Origin: Actinospica robiniae DSM 44927
GTDB taxonomy: Bacteria > Actinomycetota > Actinomycetes > Streptomycetales > Catenulisporaceae
DNA length: 64,000 nt
NCBI RefSeq assembly: GCF_000504285.1
Contig: NZ_KI632511.1
Coordinates: 1,485,372 to 1,549,371 of the forward strand
Reading direction: 5' to 3'
The position numbers and the translations under genes were made by a program. The notes under the pieces are model-generated. The model ran no database searches. It was not told the origin of the DNA and saw only the letters and a program-made list of their open reading frames with translations. This document shows, piece after piece, positions 29,426 to 41,596 of this stretch. Position 1 is the stretch's first letter; each line of letters starts with the position of its first letter.

Positions 29426-31260
29426 GACCCTGGTGGTTTATTCGTCAGGCGATAAGTGAGAGTTCGAGGCGGCCGAGGTGACTTGTTCTGGTTCGGTCGA
29501 GAATCTGGCCGTTCCAGTAGGCGTCGAGGCGGATCAGGTTGATAGCGCATGCGGTCAGGACGTGGTGTAGTCGGGTCTTGTCGATGCCTCGGTAGCGTGT
29601 CCGGCGGATCCCGAGGTCGATGGCCTGGTTGATGGTGCCCTCGACTCCGGCGCGGAGGGCGTATCGGGCCTGCCAGGCCTTGGTCGACTGGTCGGCGCGG
29701 GCTTTGAGCTGGAGCTCGTGGACTTCTCGCTGGGGCACGGTGACTTGTCGGCCGCCTTTCTTGCGGCGGGTGCACAGGTCTCGGGCCGGGCATCGGATGC
29801 AGCCGGCCGCCGGGAACGTCACGACGATCTTCGCGGTGCCGTTCTGGACGCATGGGGTCCACGCTGAGCTGCTCTGGCCTTGCGGGCAGGTCGCACTCCG
29901 GGCGCCGAAGTCGAAGGTGAAGGCCGACCGGTCGTATCCGGCACCGGCTTTGGCCTGCGCCGAGGTGTCGGCCAGCAGAGGGGTGACCAGGTCGATCCCG
30001 TGCTCGGCCTTGGACGAGAGCACCAGAGCCGCAGACGGGTAGCCGGAATCGAGGTAGTGCTCGGCCGGGGTCAGGCCCCGATCGGCGAGCATGGTGTGGA
30101 CCTGCGCGGTCATCGCCACATCCGGCACGGTCGCGTTCGTGGTGGCGACGTTGGTGATGATGTTCGGCGGATCCAGCCTGCGGGAGGCATCGCCGGGAGC
30201 AGGCTCATCCGGCCAGTCGCAGGTCTCGGTCAGATGGACCTTGTAGCCGCACCAGAACAGGTCATCGCCTTTGGCCGCCCACCGGGCCTCGGGATCATAG
30301 GGGGAGGCGATCCGCGATGGGGCCGGCGGGATGCCGTCCTTCTCCGCATCCCGCCGTCTGATCACCTGCTTCCCGGTCTCCTCCTCGTACACGTAGTAGT
30401 TCTGCAGCAGCACCCGCCGCAACACCCCCACCGCCGGAATTTCACGCAGCCACACCGGCGCCGAGGCCGCGTACACGGCGTTGACCAGGGCGAACCCGTC
30501 CTGGCCGTAGTCGGCCGTGAGCTGGTCGCGTTTGGTTTGCGAGGTCGGCAGACGCCAAGAATCGATCCGCCGCCCGTAGCGCGCCGACCAACCCGCGACA
30601 TCGAACTCGGACGCGAACCACCCCGGAGCCGCCGCGACGAGGGCTTCGGCCGCGGCCCGCACCGACTCCCCGGCCAGCTCCAGCCGGTTCAAATCCCGCA
30701 CCGCCGAGACCACATGCGTGGAATCCGTACGCTGCTTCCCACCCGCCTTGACCAGGCCCCGCTCCACCAACGCGACCAGCAGCACGTCCAACAGATGCTG
30801 CTCGAGCCCACCTTCGAGCACCCGGGAACGGAACTCCGGCAGCACGCTGTGATCGAATCCGGGATCATCCAGCCCCAGCCCGAGCGCGTACTTCCACGAC
30901 AGATCCCGGCCCGCCGCCTCCGCAGCCTGCCGATCGGTCAGCTTCTGCGCCATCTGAAACACGCTCACCAGCGCAAGGCGCCCCGGCGAATAGCCCGGCC
31001 GACCCCGCACCCCGAACCCCGCCACGAACCCCTCATCCGGGAACACCTCCCCGAGCATGTCCCTGACCTGCACCGCCAACGGCAGCACCTTGCGCCGGTA
31101 GATCGCCTTGATCGCCGCAGCAACCTGCGGATCCGGCTCCGGCCACGGCGCGGGCTGCATCGACACGACCCTCATCCTCCCCGCAGGCGAAGATCGGAGA
31201 CAAGCCGCCCGCCAGGCAACCCTACGAGATCAGAACCCTGCCGAATAAACCACCAGGGTC
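29426..31260 (-). mobile_element. Complete IS1182-family element
   Basis: Terminal inverted repeats are clear: GACCCTGGTGGTTTATTCG at 29426-29444 and its complement ending at 31260, extending about five more bases with one mismatch. The bases CGGCAA flank both ends directly (29420-29425 and 31261-31266), a probable 6-bp target duplication. It carries one transposase gene and looks recently inserted. Confidence 0.88.
29445..31175 (-). CDS. IS1182-family transposase
   Basis: 576 aa, full length. The DUF772-type N-terminal domain (RPGYSPGRLALVSVFQMAQK, SWKYALGLGLDDPGFDHSVL) precedes the DDE domain. Catalytic candidates are Asp in QRTDSTHV, Asp in HYLDSGYPSA and Glu in AGVEGTINQAI. A cysteine cluster (CIRCPARDLCTRR) sits before the last block, as usual in this family. 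The stop lies inside the left inverted repeat. No frameshift is seen; likely functional. Confidence 0.93.
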   Translation of the reverse strand: MRVVSMQPAPWPEPDPQVAAAIKAIYRRKVLPLAVQVRDMLGEVFPDEGFVAGFGVRGRPGYSPGRLALVSVFQMAQKLTDRQAAEAAGRDLSWKYALGLGLDDPGFDHSVLPEFRSRVLEGGLEQHLLDVLLVALVERGLVKAGGKQRTDSTHVVSAVRDLNRLELAGESVRAAAEALVAAAPGWFASEFDVAGWSARYGRRIDSWRLPTSQTKRDQLTADYGQDGFALVNAVYAASAPVWLREIPAVGVLRRVLLQNYYVYEEETGKQVIRRRDAEKDGIPPAPSRIASPYDPEARWAAKGDDLFWCGYKVHLTETCDWPDEPAPGDASRRLDPPNIITNVATTNATVPDVAMTAQVHTMLADRGLTPAEHYLDSGYPSAALVLSSKAEHGIDLVTPLLADTSAQAKAGAGYDRSAFTFDFGARSATCPQGQSSSAWTPCVQNGTAKIVVTFPAAGCIRCPARDLCTRRKKGGRQVTVPQREVHELQLKARADQSTKAWQARYALRAGVEGTINQAIDLGIRRTRYRGIDKTRLHHVLTACAINLIRLDAYWNGQILDRTRTSHLGRLELSLIA

Positions 31261-32509: not shown

Positions 32510-33544
32510 TCAGGCCCAGGTCTGGCGCTGGAGCCACAGGGAACGGGCGGTCCCAGAGCCCTGGGTGAAGACGTAGAGCAGGGCTTCCTGATTGGCGATG
32601 GCGGGGCTGACGTTGGCGGGGCCGATGACGCCGCCGAGGGACTGGAAGTCGGTGTAGGAGCTCTCGTTCTCGGCCGTCTGCACGGCCACCCACAGAGCGT
32701 TGTCGGTGCCCTTGACGAAGACGTTGATCCGGCCGTCGAGGCCGAGGGCGGCGGTGGGCCGGTCGATGATCGCCCCGCCGAGGCTGACCGAGGTGTTGAA
32801 GGAGTCGTAGTCGTCGCTCTGCCCGACGCGCCAGGCCGCGGCGTCCGAGCCGCGGTAGAGGATCTGCACCCGGGCCGCGGCGTCGAGCACGACGGAGGGC
32901 CGGGTGGTCACGCCGGTGGTCTGCTGGGCGAAGGACTGCCAGGAGTCAAGGCCGTTCGGGCTCTGCTGCTGGATCGTCCAGAGGCTGTTGGAGCCGCCCA
33001 GGACCGCGACCACGATGCGTCCGGAGCCGTCGAGGATCGGCGAGGGCGTCGCGTAGATCGCGCCGCCGAGGGAGACCGGGGCGGTGTACTGCTCGTAGTA
33101 AAGGCCCTGGTTGCGCACGTACCACAGCGCGCCGTCGGTGCCGCGGAAGAAGACCTGGATGCGGCCGTCGGCGTTGAGCGCAGCAGCGGGGTCCCCGCCG
33201 ACGCTGGTCACGATCCGCGTCGGCGTGCCGAAGCCGACGTTGGGCGCGTTCTGTGTCACGACTTCGATGTCGCCGGACGTGGTGCGGTAGAACACCCGGA
33301 TCTTGCCGTCCTTGCCCCGCACGGCGTTCGGCACACCCGCGATGGCGGCGCCGGTGATCTGAGCCCAGGAGCTCCAGGTCCGGTCGCGCTGCTCCCAGAT
33401 GGTCCAGAGGGTGTTGGAGCCGCCCTGGACGAAGACCTGGACGCGGTTGTCGGCGTTGAGGACCGGCGCCGGCTCGGCGACGATGGTGCCCTGGAGGTTG
33501 ATCCAGGTGCCCCAGTTGGTTCCCGGAGTAGTGGACACAGGCAT
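32510..33544 (-). CDS. PLL-like beta-propeller lectin
   Basis: 344 aa. Six to seven repeats of about 45-50 residues share the pattern W..(sequence)..LGG.I...P....DGRI.VF..GxDxALW (for example LNADGRIQVFFRGTDGALW and LGLDGRINVFVKGTDNALW). This matches the PLL/tectonin-like propeller lectins that bind fucose or O-methylated glycans. There is no signal peptide, so it may act in the cytoplasm, be released on lysis, or use another export route. A tandem terminator follows it. Composition is less Arg-rich than its neighbours. Confidence 0.75.
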   Translation of the reverse strand: MPVSTTPGTNWGTWINLQGTIVAEPAPVLNADNRVQVFVQGGSNTLWTIWEQRDRTWSSWAQITGAAIAGVPNAVRGKDGKIRVFYRTTSGDIEVVTQNAPNVGFGTPTRIVTSVGGDPAAALNADGRIQVFFRGTDGALWYVRNQGLYYEQYTAPVSLGGAIYATPSPILDGSGRIVVAVLGGSNSLWTIQQQSPNGLDSWQSFAQQTTGVTTRPSVVLDAAARVQILYRGSDAAAWRVGQSDDYDSFNTSVSLGGAIIDRPTAALGLDGRINVFVKGTDNALWVAVQTAENESSYTDFQSLGGVIGPANVSPAIANQEALLYVFTQGSGTARSLWLQRQTWA

Positions 33545-33796
33545 GAGTTATCCCCTTTCACGCGCTGCGCACAGACTGCCTTGCGCAATTGTGCTCACTC
33601 GAGTCATTCCACCCAAATGGCCCACTTCACACGATATCAGTTGATATAGTCTGCCTGATCTATGAAGTCGGATGAGCACTCGTCCACTCACACGGTCGCC
33701 TGCGAACCGCACTGGAGTCGATCCAAGACGTGGACGGAAGCTGGGACGGTTCACAGCGCCCCACCGCAGCACAGCCGGACACATAAGATTGCGGCC

Positions 33797-34582
33797 GTGA
33801 GCGAACCGACCGGCGAGATAGCCACGGGCATCAACCCTCGCGGCTTCGGCGAGCCCGTGCTCCGGCTCGACGGACGGCGCAGCATCCTCGCGCTCTGGCC
33901 TCAAGACGCAGTAGGCGAGGTCTGCGCCGCAGGACCTGAACGGACCGGAGGATACGTAGGCCCCGTCCAGGGCGATGCCGCGATCTTCCCGAACGCAACG
34001 CTCCGGTACATATGCAAGGCCTGCGCCCGCGCGAAGGCCGGATTATACGAGCTCGAACTCACTGGTCATGTCTGCTCGTACTGGTCAAGCGCCACATGCC
34101 ACGTCGACCGGCGCGCTTACTCTCCCGGGGAACTCGAGGAGCTCTCACCGCGCGACCGCATCGACTACGTGACAGAACAAGACCAGTACTCGAAGCGGGG
34201 ATGGACCGTCCTCGCAGTCGAACCCGCCACCGACTGGCCCCCACAGCAAGCTATTCATACTGGGACATCGAGATCTGCGCCACGCGCGACCTACCGCGCC
34301 AGCACTAGATCAACAAGCCCGACGAATCACACGCTGAGACCGCAACAGACCGAGGCGTATCCAGAGCGGCCCTGGTCGTTTTCGCAGATCCTCATCACCC
34401 GCGCAACTCATCGACCAGGTCCACGAACACAGCTCCGGGTGTCCGCTGTCATCCAATCGGGGCGTTTGACAGCGAAACTAGCCGTTTTGGCTTCTACGTC
34501 AGCGAATCTAGTCGTGTGGGTCGGCGCGCTGGAGGTGCTGGGTGGCTGTGCTGGCGGGAGTGGATACTGGGCTCTACTTTGA
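33797..34582 (+). CDS. Hypothetical ORF, possibly cut by transposon end
   Basis: From a GTG at 33797 the first ~150 codons look coding (VSEPTGEIATGINPRGFGEP, LRLDGRRSILALWPQDAV, YICKACARAKAGLYELEL). After about 34270 the composition degrades and the frame runs through the putative transposon left end (34447). No family is recognised. It may be a gene interrupted by the insertion. Confidence 0.3.
   Translation: MSEPTGEIATGINPRGFGEPVLRLDGRRSILALWPQDAVGEVCAAGPERTGGYVGPVQGDAAIFPNATLRYICKACARAKAGLYELELTGHVCSYWSSATCHVDRRAYSPGELEELSPRDRIDYVTEQDQYSKRGWTVLAVEPATDWPPQQAIHTGTSRSAPRATYRASTRSTSPTNHTLRPQQTEAYPERPWSFSQILITRATHRPGPRTQLRVSAVIQSGRLTAKLAVLASTSANLVVWVGALEVLGGCAGGSGYWALL
34467..34514 (+). repeat. 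Direct repeats at transposon left end
   Basis: ACAGCGAAACTAGCCG (34469-34484) and TCAGCGAATCTAGTCG (34499-34514) match at 13 of 16 positions and are 30 bp apart. Spaced direct repeats just outside tnsA are expected of TnsB-binding sites. Confidence 0.55.
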
Positions 34583-35291
34583 GCTCTCGCACATGGATCT
34601 CGTGCTCGGCCGCAGGCGGCGCCCGTTGCCGGAGTGCGTGACGGTCCGTTTCGAGAGCGTGCCCCCGGTGCGGGGGTTCCGCTGGTCTCGCGGGGACCGC
34701 CATTTCTCGGGCTGGTACTGGTCGGCGACCGTTGGCCGTCACGTCGGTTTCGAGTCCTGGCTGGAACGGGACCGGTTGCTCCTGCTCGACTTCGATCCGC
34801 TGGTGGTCGGGATCTCGTCGCAGCCGTTCTGGCTGCATTGGCACGATGGCGACCGAGAACGACGCCACGCGCCCGACTACTTCGTGCGTTTCTCGGGCGG
34901 GTCGGCGGCCGTCGTCGATGTCCGTGCCGATGACCGGATCGAGCCGAAAGACGCCGCCGCGTTCGAGATGACGCGCCTGGCGTGTGCGCAGATGGGTTGG
35001 GAGTTCCAACGGCTGGGGGCGCCGGATGCGGCGCTGGTGGCGAATGTGCGGTGGCTCTCGAGGTACCGGCACCCGCGGTGCCTGCGTCGGGAGGCTGCCG
35101 CCCGGCTGCGCGAGGTGTTCGCCGAACCGACCGCGCTGCTGCGTGGAGCTGATCGGGCCGGGGATCGGCTGGAGACGCTGCCGACGTTGTTCCACCTGCT
35201 GTGGGGACAGGAGTTGTCCGTCGAGGATCTGTCTGCGCAGTTGTTGGGGCCGAGCACGCTCGTGCGCCTGTCCCGGGCCGGTGCGCGGTGA
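34542..35291 (+). CDS. tnsA: TnsA-like transposase endonuclease subunit
   Basis: 249 aa from a GTG with GGAGGTG upstream. It matches actinobacterial TnsA-like heteromeric transposase nucleases: GRHVGFESWLERDRLLLLDF, DPLVVGISSQPFWLHWHDG, RRHAPDYFVRF, VVDVRADDRI. By analogy with TnsA (E63, D114, QxK132) the catalytic set would be E71, D112 and D126-V-R128, with Arg where Lys is usual. TnsA cuts the 5' strands at transposon ends, allowing cut-and-paste movement with TnsB. Its stop overlaps tnsB (GTGA). Its last ~70 residues may contact TnsC. Confidence 0.85.
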   Translation: MAVLAGVDTGLYFELSHMDLVLGRRRRPLPECVTVRFESVPPVRGFRWSRGDRHFSGWYWSATVGRHVGFESWLERDRLLLLDFDPLVVGISSQPFWLHWHDGDRERRHAPDYFVRFSGGSAAVVDVRADDRIEPKDAAAFEMTRLACAQMGWEFQRLGAPDAALVANVRWLSRYRHPRCLRREAAARLREVFAEPTALLRGADRAGDRLETLPTLFHLLWGQELSVEDLSAQLLGPSTLVRLSRAGAR

Positions 35292-37171
35292 ACGATGTGG
35301 AGCGGAGGGTGCCGCCCACAGCGCGGTTGGCGGAGTTCCCGAAGCCAGCGGCGGACCGGGCCCGCTGGTGGGAGGCCCACATCCTGGAGGTGCTGCGCGG
35401 GCTTCCACCGGATGCGCCCGACGGTGCCGCGCCGCGCCCGCAATTTGATCCCCGGGAGCACTCGCTGGCCCAACGCGAGCGTGCCAAGGCTGCCGAGTTG
35501 AGCGCGGCCGGGCATCGGGTGACTGCCAGCGGGATCAAGCAGCGACGTCAGCGCTACCAGCGTGAGGGCCTGATCGGTCTGGTCGATGGACGTAGCGCCA
35601 AGCAGATGCCCGTATACGGGCGTAGCGACCCTGTGGTGGTCGAGGCGATGCGGCAGGCGATCGCGGAGAGCGCCGACGCATCCTCGAAGACCATCGGTTT
35701 CACCGTCTGGCGGGCCCGGCAGATCCTGGCCGAACGCGCGGGCGAGGAAGCCATGGATGTCCCCACCCAGCGCAAGCTCTACCGGCTCTTCGCCAAGCTG
35801 GCCGTCGGTAGCCACACCACCGGCTCGGCCCGCACCCGACGTTCCGTCGCCCTCAGGCCGCCCGGCCCGTTCGGCGAGGCTCCGGCCGGTGCGCCGGGCG
35901 AGGTGATGCAGATCGACTCCACCCCGTTGGACGTCCTGGTCCGCTTGGATGATGGAATCGCGGAGAAGGTCGAGTTGACCGCGCTGGTCGACATCGCGAC
36001 CAGGTCGATCACCGCGGCGGTGCTGCGGCCGACGACCAAAGCAGCCGATGCCTCGGTGCTGCTGGCCCGCAGCGTCACGCCGGAGACCATGCGGCCGGGC
36101 TGGCCGGAGGCGTTGCGGATGTCGCGTTCGGTCCTGCCGCATCGACGGCTACTGACACTGGACGAAAGACTCGAACATGCGGCCGCGAGGCCGGTGATCG
36201 TGCCGGAGACGATCGTCTGCGACCACGGCAAGGCGTTCATTTCCCACAACTTCCGTGCCTCATGCCGGTATCTCGGCATCAACCTGCAACCTGCGCACAA
36301 GGCGACCCCGACCGACAAGGGAACGATCGAGAAGACGCTGGCCTCCGTGGCCACGCTGTTCGCTCAGTTCGCCGCCGGCTATACGGGCAGAAGCGCGGAC
36401 CGCCGCGGACAGCACCTGCAGGACGGCCCGCTGTGGTCGCTGCCTGAGTTGCAGGAACTGCTCGATGAGTGGGTCATCGCCGTGTGGCAGGTCAGGCCGC
36501 ATGATGCGCTGCGCGACCCGGACTCGCCTGGGAGGGCGTTCACCCCCAACGAGAAGTACGCGGCGTTGCTCTCCTCTTGTGGCTACGTCCCGCTCCCGCT
36601 GAGCGGCGAGGACTACATCGAACTGCTGCCCGAACGCTGGCAGGCGATCAACTCCTACGGCATCCGGATCAAGCACCGCACCTACGACGGCCGCGAACTG
36701 AATCCTCTGCGCCGTCAACACTCCGGGGTCACCGAGAAGAAGGGGTTATGGGAAATCCACCATGATCCATACGACGTCACTCGGGTGTGGGTGCGCGACC
36801 GGCGTGCGGGCCGGTGGATCACCGTGTACTGGAAGCACCTGCACCGCGTCGGTGTTCCGTTCGGGGAGATGGCCTGGGACCGGGCTGTGCAGCAGGTGCC
36901 GGATGGCACCGAAGCGCAGATCGCCGACGCCGCAGCCGCTCTGCTCCAGCGCGCCCACGCCGGCCCCAGCCAGAATGCCGAGGCTGCGGGCAAGCGCTCA
37001 CGGCGCGACCGGCGCATCGCCGCACGCACCCGAGCCGCTCCGACCAGTTCTCAGATCCCTGACCCGCCGACCATCGAAGAGACCGGAAGCGAACCCGCCG
37101 ACGACACATTGGCCCCAGTCATCCCGCTAGGCCTGTTCGACCCGCTCGAAGACCCCTGGAGGCGCCCGTGA
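35288..37171 (+). CDS. tnsB: TnsB-like DDE transposase (rve, Mu C-terminal)
   Basis: 627 aa from a GTG overlapping the tnsA stop. N-terminal HTH domains (ASGIKQRRQRYQREGLIGLV) bind end repeats. The RNase-H core carries D210 (MQIDSTPLD), D312 (VCDHGKAF) and E348 (KGTIEKTL), exactly 35 residues between the last two. A Mu-type C-terminal barrel (KHRTYDGRELNPLRRQHSG, DPYDVTRVWVRD) follows, then a basic tail that probably binds TnsC. It joins 3' ends to target DNA. The gene is uninterrupted, and its stop overlaps tnsC (GTGA). Confidence 0.92.
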   Translation: MNDVERRVPPTARLAEFPKPAADRARWWEAHILEVLRGLPPDAPDGAAPRPQFDPREHSLAQRERAKAAELSAAGHRVTASGIKQRRQRYQREGLIGLVDGRSAKQMPVYGRSDPVVVEAMRQAIAESADASSKTIGFTVWRARQILAERAGEEAMDVPTQRKLYRLFAKLAVGSHTTGSARTRRSVALRPPGPFGEAPAGAPGEVMQIDSTPLDVLVRLDDGIAEKVELTALVDIATRSITAAVLRPTTKAADASVLLARSVTPETMRPGWPEALRMSRSVLPHRRLLTLDERLEHAAARPVIVPETIVCDHGKAFISHNFRASCRYLGINLQPAHKATPTDKGTIEKTLASVATLFAQFAAGYTGRSADRRGQHLQDGPLWSLPELQELLDEWVIAVWQVRPHDALRDPDSPGRAFTPNEKYAALLSSCGYVPLPLSGEDYIELLPERWQAINSYGIRIKHRTYDGRELNPLRRQHSGVTEKKGLWEIHHDPYDVTRVWVRDRRAGRWITVYWKHLHRVGVPFGEMAWDRAVQQVPDGTEAQIADAAAALLQRAHAGPSQNAEAAGKRSRRDRRIAARTRAAPTSSQIPDPPTIEETGSEPADDTLAPVIPLGLFDPLEDPWRRP

Positions 37172-38160
37172 CCATCGTCGATCCGGCCACCAAGCCGACG
37201 GCCGACGCCGCCGGCCAGCATCTGAGCACCCTCGCCGGATGGCGTCGATCCCTCGCCGACCCGCCGCCGATGCCGAGCCCGGCCGACGATGACGAATCGC
37301 GTCTCGAACATCACGCCCGGCTGCTGGTGGTGGCCACCTCCACGGTCCGCCACACCGTCACCTGCGGGCGCAGACTGGTGCTGCTCAACCGCCACGCGAT
37401 CAGCGCCCGCCGCGGCCTGATCGTCTCCGGGCCGGCCGGGACCGGCAAGACCATCGCCATCACCCAGCTCGGCCGTTCCCACGAACTGCTGGACCAGGCC
37501 CGCCACCCGCATGTGGCGGACCGCATCCCGGTTCTCTACATCACCGTTCCGCCCGCCGCGACCGCCCGCATGATCGCGGCGGAGTTCGCCCGCTTCCTCG
37601 GCCTTCCCATCAGGGCCCGCTCGAACATGACCGACATCATCGAAGCCGTCGTCGGCGTGTGCACCGACGCGCGAACCGGGCTGGTCCTGGTCGACGAGCT
37701 TCACAACATCTCGCTGGCCACCAGGGCCGGGGCGGAAGTCTCCGACACTCTGAAGTACTTCTCCGAACGCATCCCGGCCACCTTCATCTACGCCGGCATC
37801 GACGTCGAGGACTCCGACCTGCTCTCCGGAACCCGCGGTGCCCAGATCGCCGGCCGATTCACCCTGATCCCCTCTCGCCCGTTCCCCTACAACGAGGAAT
37901 GGAAAGGGCTGGTCGCCACCATGGAAGACACCCTCCGGCTGCGCGATCACCGCCCCGGCACCCTCACCGGCCTGGACCGGTTCCTTCACGACCACACCGG
38001 CGGCATGATCGGCGCTTTATCCCACGCCATCCGCGGAGCCGCGATCGACGCGATCCTCACCGGCACCGAGAAGATCACCAAGAAGAGCCTCCAGACGATC
38101 CCGCTGGACCACACCGCCCAGTCCACCGCCTCGCTCGCCACCAAGACCGCCACCCGGTGA
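37168..38160 (+). CDS. tnsC: TnsC/TniB-like AAA+ ATPase
   Basis: 330 aa. Walker A is GPAGTGKT (88-95), Walker B LVLVDELH (172-179), with a sensor-type region at TFIYAGIDVED. The family polymerises on target DNA in an ATP-dependent manner, linking the target selector (TniQ) to the TnsAB transposase and giving target immunity. It overlaps tnsB and tniQ by GTGA, so stoichiometry is probably set by coupling. It appears intact. Confidence 0.92.
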   Translation: MTIVDPATKPTADAAGQHLSTLAGWRRSLADPPPMPSPADDDESRLEHHARLLVVATSTVRHTVTCGRRLVLLNRHAISARRGLIVSGPAGTGKTIAITQLGRSHELLDQARHPHVADRIPVLYITVPPAATARMIAAEFARFLGLPIRARSNMTDIIEAVVGVCTDARTGLVLVDELHNISLATRAGAEVSDTLKYFSERIPATFIYAGIDVEDSDLLSGTRGAQIAGRFTLIPSRPFPYNEEWKGLVATMEDTLRLRDHRPGTLTGLDRFLHDHTGGMIGALSHAIRGAAIDAILTGTEKITKKSLQTIPLDHTAQSTASLATKTATR

Positions 38161-38804
38161 ACGCCCCCACGACGTATCAGGCCCCGCTGGCCCCGCTGCC
38201 GATGAACGTCCGGCCGCACCTCGGGGAGAGCGCTGCCTCCTATATCCGGCGGCTGGCCCGCGCCAACCACCTCAAACCCAGCGAACTGCACGAGATACTC
38301 ACCGGCCCGGGCAGCTCCACCGTATCGATCCGCCCCGAACGCCTCGCCGCCCTCGCCAGCCGTCCGATCGAAGACCTGGCACGGGCTCTGCCCGACCTCC
38401 TACCGCCACCGCCCCCACGCCCTCGCCCTCGCCCACGTGCATCCCGCTCCCACCGGCCAGCGCGACCAGACCCCACGAAAATCGACCAACTGGTGCTCTA
38501 CTCCGCGATCCGCGCCGACGCACAGCGCGGATACCCGCTGCGCCTGCTCGCCGCCCGGCACCACGTCCACCGCCGCACCGTCCGATCCGCCCTGGCCGCG
38601 CTCAGCCCACAACGACGGCAGGTGCACTCGCGCTTTACCCGGATGCTCGATCACACGCGCGAGCGCATCGACGCACTGCTCGACCAAGGCCTCACGGCCC
38701 GCGAGATCTGGTGCCGCATCCTCGACGAACACGACACCCCGATCGGATACGTCAGCATCTGCAGCTACATCACCCGCAAGCGCAAGAACGCTCCGACCGC
38801 ATAG
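38157..38804 (+). CDS. tniQ: Short TniQ with C-terminal HTH module
   Basis: 215 aa from a GTG overlapping tnsC. The N-terminal TniQ signature is PMNVRPHLGESAASYIRRLA, RANHLKPSELHEILTG. After a Pro/Arg-rich linker (~80-100) comes a helix-turn-helix (LRLLAARHHVHRRTVRSALA) and a helical segment (ERIDALLDQGLTAREIWCRI, GYVSICSYITRKRK). That second part resembles the N-terminal region of IS21 IstA rather than the zinc-finger body of long TniQ/TnsD. TniQ recruits TnsC to chosen targets; here the HTH could supply the DNA contact. Confidence 0.8.
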   Translation: MNAPTTYQAPLAPLPMNVRPHLGESAASYIRRLARANHLKPSELHEILTGPGSSTVSIRPERLAALASRPIEDLARALPDLLPPPPPRPRPRPRASRSHRPARPDPTKIDQLVLYSAIRADAQRGYPLRLLAARHHVHRRTVRSALAALSPQRRQVHSRFTRMLDHTRERIDALLDQGLTAREIWCRILDEHDTPIGYVSICSYITRKRKNAPTA

Positions 38805-38830
38805 CGGCCACGATAAAAAGGACACGCTCG

Positions 38831-39196
38831 ATGCTCACCCCGGAGGAAGTCGCCACCGCGAAGCAGATGCAGGCCCGCGGCTGGAAGATCTCGGTGATCG
38901 CCCGCCACCTCCACCACGATCGCAGAACCGTCCGCGACTACCTGACCGGGCAACGCCTCCCAGGCGTTCGCCACGCTGGCCCTGATCCCTTGGACCCGTT
39001 CGCCGGGTACTGCCAACGGCGTTTCGCCGACGACCCGCATCTCCAGGCATCCACCCTCTTCGAAGAACTGGTCGAGCTCGGCTACCCGGGCGCCTACTCC
39101 ACCTTCACCCGAGCCCTTCGCCGCCAAGACCTTCGGCCCCACTGCCACATCTGCACCAGCTCCGATCAGCCGAAACCGGAGAACAGGGAGCAATAA
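38831..39196 (+). CDS. IstA-like helix-turn-helix protein
   Basis: 121 aa from the ATG at 38831 with AAAAAGGA upstream, 26 bp after tniQ. It reads KISVIARHLHHDRRTVRDYL (HTH), then DPFAGYCQRRFADDPHLQAS, TLFEELVELGYPGAYSTFTR and ALRRQDLRPHCHIC. This is the N-terminal DNA-binding and helical region of IS21-type IstA without any DDE domain. Its complete size and position as the last operon gene suggest a functional accessory protein, perhaps a target-site adaptor or regulator, rather than a fragment. The Cys-X2-His-X-Cys end is unexplained. Confidence 0.7.
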   Translation: MLTPEEVATAKQMQARGWKISVIARHLHHDRRTVRDYLTGQRLPGVRHAGPDPLDPFAGYCQRRFADDPHLQASTLFEELVELGYPGAYSTFTRALRRQDLRPHCHICTSSDQPKPENREQ

Positions 39197-39287
39197 AACC
39201 AGAGCCCTGCTTTACTGTGGGCCCGGCTCAGACCGTCAACGGCGAAACTGTTCCGCCTCCCGCCGATCACTCCGCTAACCTGGCCGC

Positions 39288-39650
39288 ATGTGCAGGTACG
39301 CAGAGACCCCCTACAAGGTCCACTACGTGTGCCTCCCATGCCGCAGCACCAGCAAACACCCTTGGGACGGCGCGAACCACCTCTGCCCGCGATGCCGCAA
39401 CCCCATGATCTTCGCCGGCCACGACTTCTCCGCACCCAGACGGCGAGACGCCTCCGGCTGGACCGCCGTGGCCGCGGTGCTCACCGCGGGACTGCGCTAC
39501 GAGGGCTTCGAAACCTGCGGTTGCTCACGCGACCCGGAATTCCGCCCCCGCACCAGCGCACAGGTACGCCAGCGGCGCCGACTCGCCACACGGCGCGGCA
39601 TCCCGGAAGCGGACCTCCTTGCCTCGCGCGATCCCTACGACCCCGTCTGA
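39288..39650 (+). CDS. Zinc-ribbon protein of unknown function
   Basis: 120 aa. It has paired cysteines (YVCLPCRSTSK and HLCPRCRNPM) that likely bind zinc, followed by FAGHDFSAPRRRDASGWTAV and LRYEGFETCGCSRDPEFRPR. This is a small actinobacterial family, sometimes mislabelled deoxyxylulose-5-phosphate synthase. Function unknown. It lies between the Tn7-like operon and the candidate right end and could be cargo or flanking. Confidence 0.7.
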   Translation: MCRYAETPYKVHYVCLPCRSTSKHPWDGANHLCPRCRNPMIFAGHDFSAPRRRDASGWTAVAAVLTAGLRYEGFETCGCSRDPEFRPRTSAQVRQRRRLATRRGIPEADLLASRDPYDPV

Positions 39651-39689
39651 CTGCCCGCCGCCACCGCGGCCGACCACCTTCCCCAATCT

Positions 39690-39754
39690 TGACAACGAAG
39701 TCAGTCGACGCAGGTCAGAGCACTATCGCAGGCTAACTTCATTGTCCAAGGACA
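39690..39754 (-). repeat. Candidate right end of the Tn7-like element
   Basis: Read inward from 39754 the minus strand begins TGTCCTTGGACAATGAAGTT, strikingly like the Tn7 terminus pattern TGT-N5-GACAATAAAGT. A partly matching copy in the other orientation (TTGACAACGAAGTCAG) is at 39690-39705. The inner motif GACAATGAAGTTAGCC matches the left repeat GACAGCGAAACTAGCC at 12 of 16 positions. It also overlaps the end of a minus-strand reading frame, so coincidence is possible. Confidence 0.35.
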
Positions 39755-40123
39755 GCAACGAGCCGAGCGGGCCGCAGAACGCGGGCTCGGCGGCGAGGCG
39801 GCGAACTCCTCGGGCAGACCCTCGATCAGGCCCGGCCACAACGCCAGCGGATCCGACCGATACGGGCTCATCCCGGACTCGTGATCGAACCCGTAGGCCC
39901 ACGCACCGCCGTGCGTGAACACAAGCGCGTATTCATCGCCGGACCCGTTGTGCATGGACGCCGTCTGCTGCCCCGGTGCCCACGCGGCATCGAAGGAGGA
40001 ATACCGAAACTCCCACTCTGGGCTCAGGATCGGATCGAGCGCGGCCATCACGCGGCAGCGGTCCCGGACCACCTCGACGTCAGGCAGGCGGGCGATCAGT
40101 TCATGGACCGACACGCCGCACAT
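39701..40123 (-). CDS. Hypothetical protein, C-terminus altered
   Basis: 140 aa. The body (VSVHELIARLPDVEVVRDRC, LDPILSPEWEFRYSSFDAAW, ASMHNGSGDEYALVFTHGGA, FDHESGMSPYRSDPLALWPG) fits a common actinobacterial protein family of unknown function. After GLPEEFAA the frame gives SPPSPRSAARS, whereas a neighbouring frame reads AEPAFCG, the expected continuation. A frameshift near 39800 and perhaps the transposon end have changed the tail. Confidence 0.6.
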   Translation of the reverse strand: MCGVSVHELIARLPDVEVVRDRCRVMAALDPILSPEWEFRYSSFDAAWAPGQQTASMHNGSGDEYALVFTHGGAWAYGFDHESGMSPYRSDPLALWPGLIEGLPEEFAASPPSPRSAARSARCCPWTMKLACDSALTCVD

Positions 40124-40199
40124 CCAACCTCATCCGCCCGCTCGGCCACCATGAGCAGGCCGGCCTCCGGGGAAGCAGGCCGTCCGGGTTCTCCGTCTG

Positions 40200-41240
40200 T
40201 CATGGCGCGGCCGAGCCGTCAGGGCTCTCGCCGCCTGCGGGTGCCGGGCGTCGGGCACGTATCGCGCTAAGACACAGGGCGATCGCGAGCAGTCCGCCAA
40301 GAAGCAGAACCGCGACATACGGGTCCTGAATCTCATCTCTGCTCTGAGCCAGGTCGTCGGCTCGGGACAAGGCGACCGGCACGAGGTCCGGGATCGAAGC
40401 GGCCGGCCCGTAAGCGGCCAGGGCGGTGAGCGACTCGACGGCCGCCAGCGCGGCGAAAGCTCCCGCGCACAGCCCTGCGACCAGACCGTCCCTCGCCCGG
40501 GCACGCGGCTGACGGCCGCTCGGTGCCAGAACGCCGGCCACGATCATGGCCCCGGCGGTCAGCGCGAACAGCGGGCCCGTGCCCGTCGGCATCGGACGGG
40601 CCGTAGCCAGCACCACCGTCCAGATCGCCGCGGCACCGCCGCCGGCTCCGGCGCCGATCGCCAAGACCCGGGCGGGAACGGCGTCCCGACGCGCCGTCGC
40701 GCGTACGGTGACGGTGAGAAAAGCCAGCAGATAGCCTGCCGCGACGGCCGCGTAGATCGGTACGCCCACCGCTGCCTGCTCGCCCGGATTGCCGTTCGAA
40801 GCGACCGACACGGCGCTGCCGAGCACGAGCGCGCCGACCAGCAGGCAGCCGCCCGCACGCACCAGGCGCGGCGCCCACCCCGGGCCCACCGGCCCAAGCG
40901 CGCCCGGCCGCCGACCCCACCAGACCACCATCAGCAGCATCGCGACCGTGGCGAGCACCGCCCAGCGCAACGGCGCGTAGCCGATCGTCCGAGACCACCA
41001 CGCGGCCGCCGCCAAGGCGCCGAGCATCATCGCCGGGTAGCCGAGCGTACGCAGCACCGCCGGACGGGTCAGGGCCACCCGCAGGCATCCGAACGCGAAA
41101 CGCCACCGGGCGGCCGGGGTCTCCAGAGCGGCCAGTTCGGCGCGCATCGCGTGGCCCCACTCGGCGCGCTCCCGGGGAAACAGCGCCACCGCTGCACCCA
41201 GGATCCAGCCGGCCGCATCCCGGCTGGGCCGCGTCACCAC
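40200..41240 (-). CDS. Integral membrane protein partner of PadR
   Basis: 346 aa with roughly eight hydrophobic helices (for example YPAMMLGALAAAAWW, WAVLATVAMLLMVVWW, VAVLLLGGLLAIALCLSAI). The soluble N-terminus (FPRERAEWGHAMRAELAALE, RWRFAFGCLRVAL) is typical of actinobacterial membrane proteins encoded after PadR regulators. The start (GTG at 41240 or 41237) overlaps the padR stop. Function unknown; likely under PadR control. Confidence 0.75.
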   Translation of the reverse strand: MVTRPSRDAAGWILGAAVALFPRERAEWGHAMRAELAALETPAARWRFAFGCLRVALTRPAVLRTLGYPAMMLGALAAAAWWSRTIGYAPLRWAVLATVAMLLMVVWWGRRPGALGPVGPGWAPRLVRAGGCLLVGALVLGSAVSVASNGNPGEQAAVGVPIYAAVAAGYLLAFLTVTVRATARRDAVPARVLAIGAGAGGGAAAIWTVVLATARPMPTGTGPLFALTAGAMIVAGVLAPSGRQPRARARDGLVAGLCAGAFAALAAVESLTALAAYGPAASIPDLVPVALSRADDLAQSRDEIQDPYVAVLLLGGLLAIALCLSAIRARRPAPAGGESPDGSAAP

Positions 41241-41596
41241 GCACCACGCAGCGTGGCGCGGCCGGGGCCGTCTCCTTCCGTCGCCGGCACGACGGGAGAA
41301 GCCTCGGGCTCAGGCAATACGAGCTCTGCGGCCATCTCCCGGCCCGAGTCGGTCAGCCGGTACAGGTGGCGCGGCGGGCGCCCCGGTGACGGCTCGTCCT
41401 CCCAGCTAGCCTCCACCAACCCCCGGTCGCTGAGCCGGATCAGGATCGGGTAGAGCGAGCCCGCCTTCAAGCCGACCTCACGGCCGAGCTCGTAGCCGTA
41501 ACGCCACCTCGACGGTTCGGCGGCGAGAGCATGGAGCACCGCAGTGGTCTGAGGCGATGGCCTGCGGATGCGGCGAGAGCGGGGATCCCGAGTCAC
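41234..41596 (-). CDS. PadR-family transcriptional regulator
   Basis: 120 aa. The winged helix is clear: VLHALAAEPSRWRYGYELGR, LKAGSLYPILIRLSDRGLVE and PPRHLYRLTDSGREMAAEL. The short C-terminus probably dimerises. PadR proteins repress their own operon and release DNA on ligand or stress. A palindrome (CTCTA-N6-TAGAG) lies eight bases before the start codon and is a likely autoregulatory operator. The gene overlaps the membrane-protein gene. Confidence 0.9.
   Translation of the reverse strand: MTRDPRSRRIRRPSPQTTAVLHALAAEPSRWRYGYELGREVGLKAGSLYPILIRLSDRGLVEASWEDEPSPGRPPRHLYRLTDSGREMAAELVLPEPEASPVVPATEGDGPGRATLRGAW

Follow-up and report, generated by a model that had tools for sequence, protein, structure and literature searches.

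A Tn7-like transposon of Actinospica robiniae with putative IstA-like target-reading modules

Tn7 guided by TnsD inserts at a fixed distance from a conserved chromosomal gene (glmS), with a 5-bp duplication. Among its less studied relatives, passages of Benler et al. (2021; PMC8649781) describe an actinobacteria-dominated second TnsB clade, none of whose transposons has been experimentally characterized, and sections of Faure et al. (2023; PMC10293859) report TnsF together with a short TniQ, as well as one TniQ-TnsF fusion. Here, we describe a Tn7-like element in a stretch of 64,000 nt of Actinospica robiniae DSM 44927 (contig NZ_KI632511.1), hereafter the window, whose forward-strand positions serve as coordinates (Table 1). 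We regard the element as a real and, as far as can be seen, complete representative of a branch that has received little study; its selector module looks to be of a new kind, and we infer that it belongs to the second TnsB clade of Benler et al. As an overall explanation, we favour with some confidence a cut-and-paste Tn7-like transposon with target-reading modules similar to IstA, the transposase of IS21.

In the mechanism that we propose, TnsA and TnsB would cut the two strands at the element ends, TnsB would join the ends to the target, and TnsC would connect the transposase with a target marked by TniQ. The TniQ of this clade would have been reduced to its N-terminal part and have gained a C-terminal IstA-like double helix-turn-helix (HTH), a tail that may read a chromosomal target approximately 40 bp (upstream of the aconitase gene acnA) or 56-59 bp (at a second site) from the insertion point. 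The fifth gene, orf5, would stem from the capture of the DNA-binding half of an IS21 transposase as a gene of its own, and might give a second DNA-reading module working with TniQ (i.e., a second targeting route), comparable to TnsF beside the short TniQ in Tn6022.

The operon, the element ends and the mobility of relatives

The operon at 34542-39196, which an earlier note had described as intact, is real and intact, and what that note had overlooked are the ends at 34440 and 39754, a sixth gene (orf6) and the IstA-like tail of TniQ. Its gene junctions and coordinates were confirmed, with GTGA overlaps at tnsA/tnsB, tnsB/tnsC and tnsC/tniQ and the fifth gene following at 26 bp. As in Tn7-like transposons, a member of a TnsA family, a TnsB with an intact triad, an AAA+ TnsC and a TniQ-family protein are encoded in one operon. 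The actinobacterial family membership proposed earlier for TnsA is borne out by NF033179 (Table 1); the protein also scores just below the cut-off of Pfam TnsA-N (26.2 and 26.5 bits, respectively), and no solved structure matched it at E 1. TnsA retains E71, D112 and D126-V-R128, the R at the last motif place being common in the family (R in 97, P in 18 and K in 14 of 134 rows). The DDE triad and Walker motifs noted before are likewise intact: TnsB carries D210, D312 and E348, with 35 residues separating D312 from E348, and TnsC carries GPAGTGKT and LVLVDELHN. TnsB matches the Mu transposase C-terminal domain PF09299 (22.4 bits, cut-off 21.7) and, below the cut-off of 32.6, rve (24.7 bits), and TnsC matches TniB PF05621 with 51.2 bits (cut-off 22.4).

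The element termini are TGTCC...GGACA, in line with the TGT...ACA of Tn7-like transposons, as judged from the alignment with relatives and from repeats predicted to be of the TnsB type. A generic repeat search found no end pair among the families listed, and a first fuzzy end-pattern scan of the window found 6 matches with 6.58 expected, i.e., chance. Two further fuzzy scans lay above chance (53 versus 37, with 3 of 100 shuffles as high, and 30 versus 20, with 2 of 100). Because the pattern scans were near chance or little above it, the right end was set through the alignment with relatives. An Rfam scan of 33000-41500 gave no match, and orf6 was found in the window alone among 80 loci scanned. 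Overall, we regard it as almost certain that this is a complete Tn7-like element.

Table 1. Features of the Tn7-like element in the window (L numbers denote loci of relatives)
Feature	Position	Strand	Basis
Whole Tn7-like element, 5315 bp	34440..39754	+	By-eye alignment of both ends with relatives in which 5-bp duplications fix the termini
Left end: TGTCCGCTG terminus and three TnsB-type repeats (34450-34464, 34470-34484, 34500-34514)	34440..34541	+	Layout match by eye: L033, L043, L046, many of L110-L160
tnsA, 249 aa, endonuclease subunit	34542..35291	+	NF033179, 303 bits, cut-off 110
tnsB, 627 aa, DDE transposase	35288..37171	+	Intact DDE; matches Tn6677 TnsB 9y7b, E 3e-4
tnsC, 330 aa, AAA+ regulator	37168..38160	+	TniB PF05621; VchTnsC 7rzy, E 6e-6; ShTnsC, E 1e-4
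tniQ, 215 aa: TniQ N-terminal domain (aa 15-79), proline-rich linker, IstA-like double HTH (aa ~103-215)	38157..38804	+	PF06527, NF033546, AlphaFold2, structural neighbours
orf5, 121 aa: free-standing IstA DNA-binding region (HTH1+HTH2), no catalytic domain	38831..39196	+	Starts 26 bp after the tniQ stop; identity with IstA, 8q4d/8b4h
orf6, 120 aa, Cys-rich, cargo or accessory	39288..39650	+	No family above cut-off
Right end: TnsB-type repeat and terminal GGACA	39692..39754	+	CTAACTTCATTGTCCAAGGACA compared with CTAACTTCGCTGTCAAAGGACA of L043

Relatives were sought in 293 genomes of the order, 174 of which gave a match at E 0.001 and 134 one above the cut-off. A second search, of genome contigs with the window TnsB, gave 53 named loci; added to 80 that include the window, they make 133 loci, some cut short at contig ends. 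From 130 of these came 135 tnsA-anchored elements (L137, L161 and L162 gave none), which include double records with identical TnsB (L046 = L112; L044 = L127). The relatives often share a left end of TGTCC followed by repeats, approximately 100-160 bp before tnsA, and right-end pairing together with the duplication fixed 8 of the first 20. A strict script, which accepts only 5-bp repeats with TGTC[CT] left ends and [GA]GACA right ends and misses elements with TGACC ends, found a 5-bp target duplication in 26 of the 135 elements, compared with 0-4 of 135 for eight decoy offsets (5-mers 7-40 bp further left, same script). In L033, the duplication is 6 bp. Four contigs of Streptomyces sp. TRM49041 carry one element, identical across 9644 bp, and their edges pair, as deduced across broken contigs, as CCTCA (L117/L118, upstream of acnA) and CATGT (L138/L119, elsewhere), each flanked by a 5-bp duplication of its own. 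Identical copies at two sites in this strain therefore indicate that the element family is not a fixed remnant, and the duplications in relatives likewise speak against the fixed chromosomal remnant that the earlier note had considered.

The TniQ tail and the insertion sites

In the window TniQ, PF06527 (33.0 bits, cut-off 27) covers only profile positions 1-74 of 142, and no zinc-finger cysteines are visible. The tail (aa 118-212) matches the IS21 transposase model NF033546 (E 2e-8) and, in a weak profile match, IstA 8q4d (E 0.012). An alignment of 23 rows and an AlphaFold2 model (pLDDT 83.7) place the TniQ domain up to residue ~80-88, followed by a disordered linker and two HTH units at 103-215. 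Foldseek with this model found nothing at E 0.001 or better, its top row being IstA at E 0.22. In a second structural comparison, the tail had among its neighbours the Pax6 paired domain (Z 7.4), IstA 8b4h (Z 7.0) and, from a type V-K CRISPR-associated transposon, a 500-residue chain that is probably TnsB (Z 6.2); the neighbours of the head were TniQ chains (Z 4.3-5.6). With no Foldseek match at that threshold, the case from the fold draws on this second comparison, with its middling Z, and on sequence. IstA-like tails were found in 41 of the 53 loci from the window-TnsB search, the other 12 including L111, L113 and L160, which are cut off or broken before tniQ. In two Nocardia elements (L151, L152), the frame of the IstA-tailed TniQ continues, by eye, into a P-loop, phosphotransferase-like stretch.

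A motif served to call the sites across all 135 elements, with cut-off flanks (such as L118, L119, L123 and L152) counted as 'no site'. Twenty elements lie upstream of acnA and 10 upstream of a SPDY-domain gene (9 distinct loci, because of double records). A further 6 were flagged upstream of a PadR gene, 5 of them also recognised by eye; this set includes L159, called by motif alone, and L048, which lacks its left end. The site genes were named in single loci for acnA (L124; NF006757, 1447.7 bits) and PadR (L040), and in two for SPDY (L121, L112). The 41 loci with an IstA-like tail divide into 16 at acnA, 8 at the SPDY site and 17 that stand at neither or have no usable flank. From the conserved palindrome TCTCGATGTCGAGATAAC upstream of acnA to the first base of the element, the distance is 39-41 bp in all 18 measurable loci of the 20; this first base was set by motif, and duplications confirm it in L043, L124, L128, L155 and, via contig pairing, L117. 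The left ends of the acnA elements L062 and L143 are of a different kind. At the SPDY site, the distance is 56-59 bp in 9 of 10 and 66 bp in L113. In the right flank of L124, L128, L131 and L155, another family left end soon begins, a probable tandem insertion at the same site. At L125 and L145, two elements of different lineages face each other head-to-head, tnsA to tnsA.

With up to 2 mismatches, the acnA-site sequence occurs in 106 of 122 genomes, i.e., in 106 of 107 of group g4, which the named loci suggest to be Streptomyces, and in none of the 15 others, 14 of which belong to the window's family. The site is also absent from the window's own genome, at up to 3 mismatches, and from the flank of the window element, and a placement of the window element in the acnA-site subgroup was rejected for this absence. 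A host family without the acnA site fits an insertion elsewhere. The earlier statement that described routes do not explain the target choice holds for the window's own copy, and is in part superseded for its close kin, where shared sites partly explain it.

In a TnsB tree of 68 rows, built by a quick method, a starred set (99) of 41 rows includes the window TnsB, which lies outside the set formed by the other 40 (support 82); these are mostly Streptomyces where named. Insertion at acnA occurs in three separated TnsB lineages (the main set, L143 and L062), and L033 and L040, where two zinc-type tniQ genes replace the HTH-tailed one, nest among acnA rows (support 90) and use the PadR site. Because acnA recurs in three TnsB lineages and L033 and L040 stand at PadR, the target tends to follow TniQ rather than TnsB, as a preference and not as a rule. 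We think it probable that the TniQ tail reads the target.

Several observations weigh against the overall explanation. L138, identical to L117, carries an acnA-type TniQ yet stands elsewhere than acnA, as does L125, whose TniQ closely resembles the ones in L124 and L129. The SPDY site is confined to one TnsB subclade, so that the effects of TniQ and TnsB are inseparable there. One of the three acnA lineages is represented by L062, a broken element that sits on a long branch. Of the 135 elements, 99 lie at none of the three sites, some for a missing flank, and common HTH arrangements also reach Z values in the range of 7.0-7.4. The window element itself has flanks that match none of the three sites, and CCGGG on its left and GCAAC on its right form no 5-bp target duplication. 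Such a duplication is a sign of clean insertion rather than of membership in the Tn7-like family. Alternatively, the window copy might be an immobile remnant in which a later rearrangement joined unrelated flanks, as would suit the lack of a duplication, the unfamiliar flanks and the single copy in its own genome; but all five transposition genes and both ends are intact, and among the 40 other rows of the set that holds its TnsB are some from a genome where copies arose recently, and we consider a remnant rather unlikely.

Comparison of 150 bp of either window flank with the left ends of other elements gave no match, and Pfam on nine open reading frames (ORFs) neighbouring the window element found nothing accounting for the site. 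These ORFs are a PadR regulator, Clp N, GNAT, NB-ARC/TPR, a DDE transposase, FG-GAP under the cut-off and three without a match. The DDE transposase gene (DDE_Tnp_1_6) is located at 29445-31175 (-), approximately 3 kb to the left of the element.

The separate orf5, TniQ fusions and a divergent TnsA sub-group

The earlier reading of the fifth gene as an IstA-like HTH protein agrees with a match of aa 12-98 to the IS21 transposase model NF033546 (E 5e-15, below the full-length cut-off, as expected for a fragment) and with one to the solved IstA 8q4d (E 8e-10). Identity is 54-58% with the N-terminus of five full-length IstAs from g4 genomes (L193, L195-L198) and 47% with an IstA of another family (L168), and aa 1-115 of the orf5 model align with IstA aa 1-109 (32% identity, Z 7.2). 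The full IstA relatives reach ~450 aa, whereas orf5 stops just past the second HTH, at aa 121, and is not the full IstA with a DDE domain, followed by IstB, of the IS21 family.

In other elements, an IstA-type domain is fused in frame to the TniQ N-terminus, directly behind tnsC (L041/L239, L042, L141, L144 and three plasmid records), and in L103 an IstA-like match lies within a stop-to-stop frame of 517 aa. A search for the fusion protein among plasmids found three with >80% coverage; with at most 4 candidates scored per genome, it found three full-length places in 2 of 391 genomes of the order and none full-length in 394 genomes of the class. Since orf5 is closer to IstA than to the fusions, at least two captures are suggested, and orf5 looks, from its sequence, like a capture separate from them. 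That orf5 acts in target choice is a tentative proposal, to which we give somewhat less than even weight. Against it stands that a separate orf5 beside tniQ is a single instance, present in the window only among the 133 loci; the suggestion that orf5 always accompanies tniQ thereby falls, and orf5 as an obligate part of the operon was rejected. It also weighs against the proposal that identity with the TniQ-fused versions is 39-42%, lower than with IstA, and that the fusion-type L041, L042, L144 and L141 group with the non-fusion L157 in the TnsB tree (support 86 for the five), away from the window.

Two other explanations of orf5 have to be weighed. It could be a regulator or defence factor, i.e., a truncated IstA that binds the ends of IS21 or of its own element and represses transcription or competes with the IS21 transposase, with no role in targeting. 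A free-standing DNA-binding part without a catalytic domain, placed last before the cargo-like orf6, would suit this, as would the binding of terminal repeats by the HTH domains of IstA, where parts of a structural report describe HTH1 (1-39) and HTH2 (55-104) touching these repeats in the solved complex (PMC10122671). Nevertheless, the like domain is fused in frame to TniQ right after tnsC in other elements, and at E 0.001 the genome of the window holds no IS21 relative of orf5 (orf5 was the sole match, with 11 of 13 candidates scored), and we judge a regulator unlikely. A leftover of an IS21 insertion behind tniQ, accidental in its operon place, would agree with the occurrence of a separate orf5 in one locus only and with shortened IstA frames in other genomes (e.g., L164, L202 and L204), but the 26 bp between tniQ and orf5 are too few to hold an IS21 left end, the reading frame is uninterrupted and stops shortly beyond the domain border, and no IstA catalytic or IstB remnant is seen by eye between orf5 and orf6, which makes it improbable.

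A further idea, which we hold to be quite doubtful, is that orf5 and the like domains fused to TniQ are readers of transposon ends that were taken from elsewhere and direct Tn7-like elements into, or next to, other mobile elements. Hints come from five fusion-type sites whose left flank was inspected. L141 interrupts an IS21 element between its istA and istB genes (target duplication TCGGG; IstB neighbour 230.8 bits, cut-off 200; IS21 transposase piece E 6.5e-38). L144 lies ~20 bp head-to-head from another Tn7-like left end, its flank being 82-83% identical to the left ends of L065, L143 and L140, and L042 likewise ~20 bp from left-end-like sequence (67.6% to L058). L239 adjoins weakly end-like sequence, and next to the fusion element of the Rhodococcus pair L237/L238 (one site, two plasmids) no recognisable transposon end was found. 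Because nested insertions are common in accessory DNA, and because L125, which is not of the fusion type, likewise adjoins another left end, the end-reader idea is a lead only. In the left 600 bp of L042, inverted repeats of ~44 bp surround, by eye, a small MITE-like stretch that adjoins the element.

A sub-group of the TnsA family (L063, L064, L066, L067, L073, L077-L081, L083-L086 and L088-L093) has TnsA active-site positions replaced throughout, with E71 changed to G and D112 to Q in 20 of 20 rows and E75 to M in 19 as well. Its TnsB keeps D, D and E in 19 of 22 rows, the other three being extra degenerate TnsB copies, and tniQ lies upstream of tnsA in 12 of 20. Several members are found close to chromosome ends of the Streptomyces type, where each end carries one copy and the two distances are equal (3.2 kb in G042, 5.2 in G195, 15.7 in G149, 19.4 in G186, 26.8 in G169 and 27.1 in G234); L079 (G126, 5.6 Mb) is an exception, and many other members are on short contigs. 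As far as these sequences go, this suggests a telomere-linked Tn7-like group with a putatively dead TnsA.

Comparison with known systems

Transposons of the Tn5053/Tn402 type lack tnsA and carry the resolvase gene tniR. The window element has tnsA, and none of its six genes matches a resolvase. As the earlier note had stated, no tnsE, Cas or long TnsD gene is present among these six, and the absence of Cas genes sets the element apart from CRISPR-associated transposons; the best PADLOC match to a Cas protein is Csa3, at E 0.0016 on TnsA. With TnsD-guided Tn7, the relatives share the fixed-distance insertion at a conserved gene and the 5-bp duplication. The window element differs from it in having neither a long TnsD nor TnsE and in its short TniQ of 215 aa, and the site of the relatives is upstream of acnA instead of at glmS. 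With IstA of IS21 (8q4d, 8b4h; parts of PMC10122671), orf5 shares the DNA-binding region, lacking the DDE domain and an accompanying IstB.

The window element resembles the TnsA_like_Actin elements (NF033179) and the Benler clade in a TnsA family above the cut-off, the order tnsABC-tniQ and an actinobacterial host; the ends, the acnA target, the IstA-like TniQ tail and orf5 are absent from the passages of PMC8649781 consulted. The family name NF033179 occurs in a paper on Kitasatospora genome rearrangement, among passages that list transposases (PMC7188733). In the openly licensed PMC literature, we found neither a description of this transposon system nor Tn7-like, aconitase and insertion site together, and the main text of Faure et al. 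(PMC10293859) makes no mention of actinobacteria or aconitase. For this little-studied actinobacterial branch of Tn7-like elements, the ends and an attachment site are now defined, and the targeting model can be tested. Should the acnA site be read by the TniQ tail, these elements would be compact (~5 kb), RNA-free, site-preferring integration systems native to the industrially important Streptomyces.

The Tn6022 elements with TnsF resemble the window element in a short TniQ and a captured DNA-binding protein in one operon, and in the occurrence of TniQ fusions, as described in parts of PMC10293859. They differ in the origin of this module, TnsF being derived from a tyrosine recombinase and the IstA-like orf5 of the window from IS21 IstA. 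If true, the capture of the IstA DNA-binding domain would show other transposases to be a source of selectors for Tn7-like elements, and would thereby extend the modular model set out in those parts of Faure et al. (2023).

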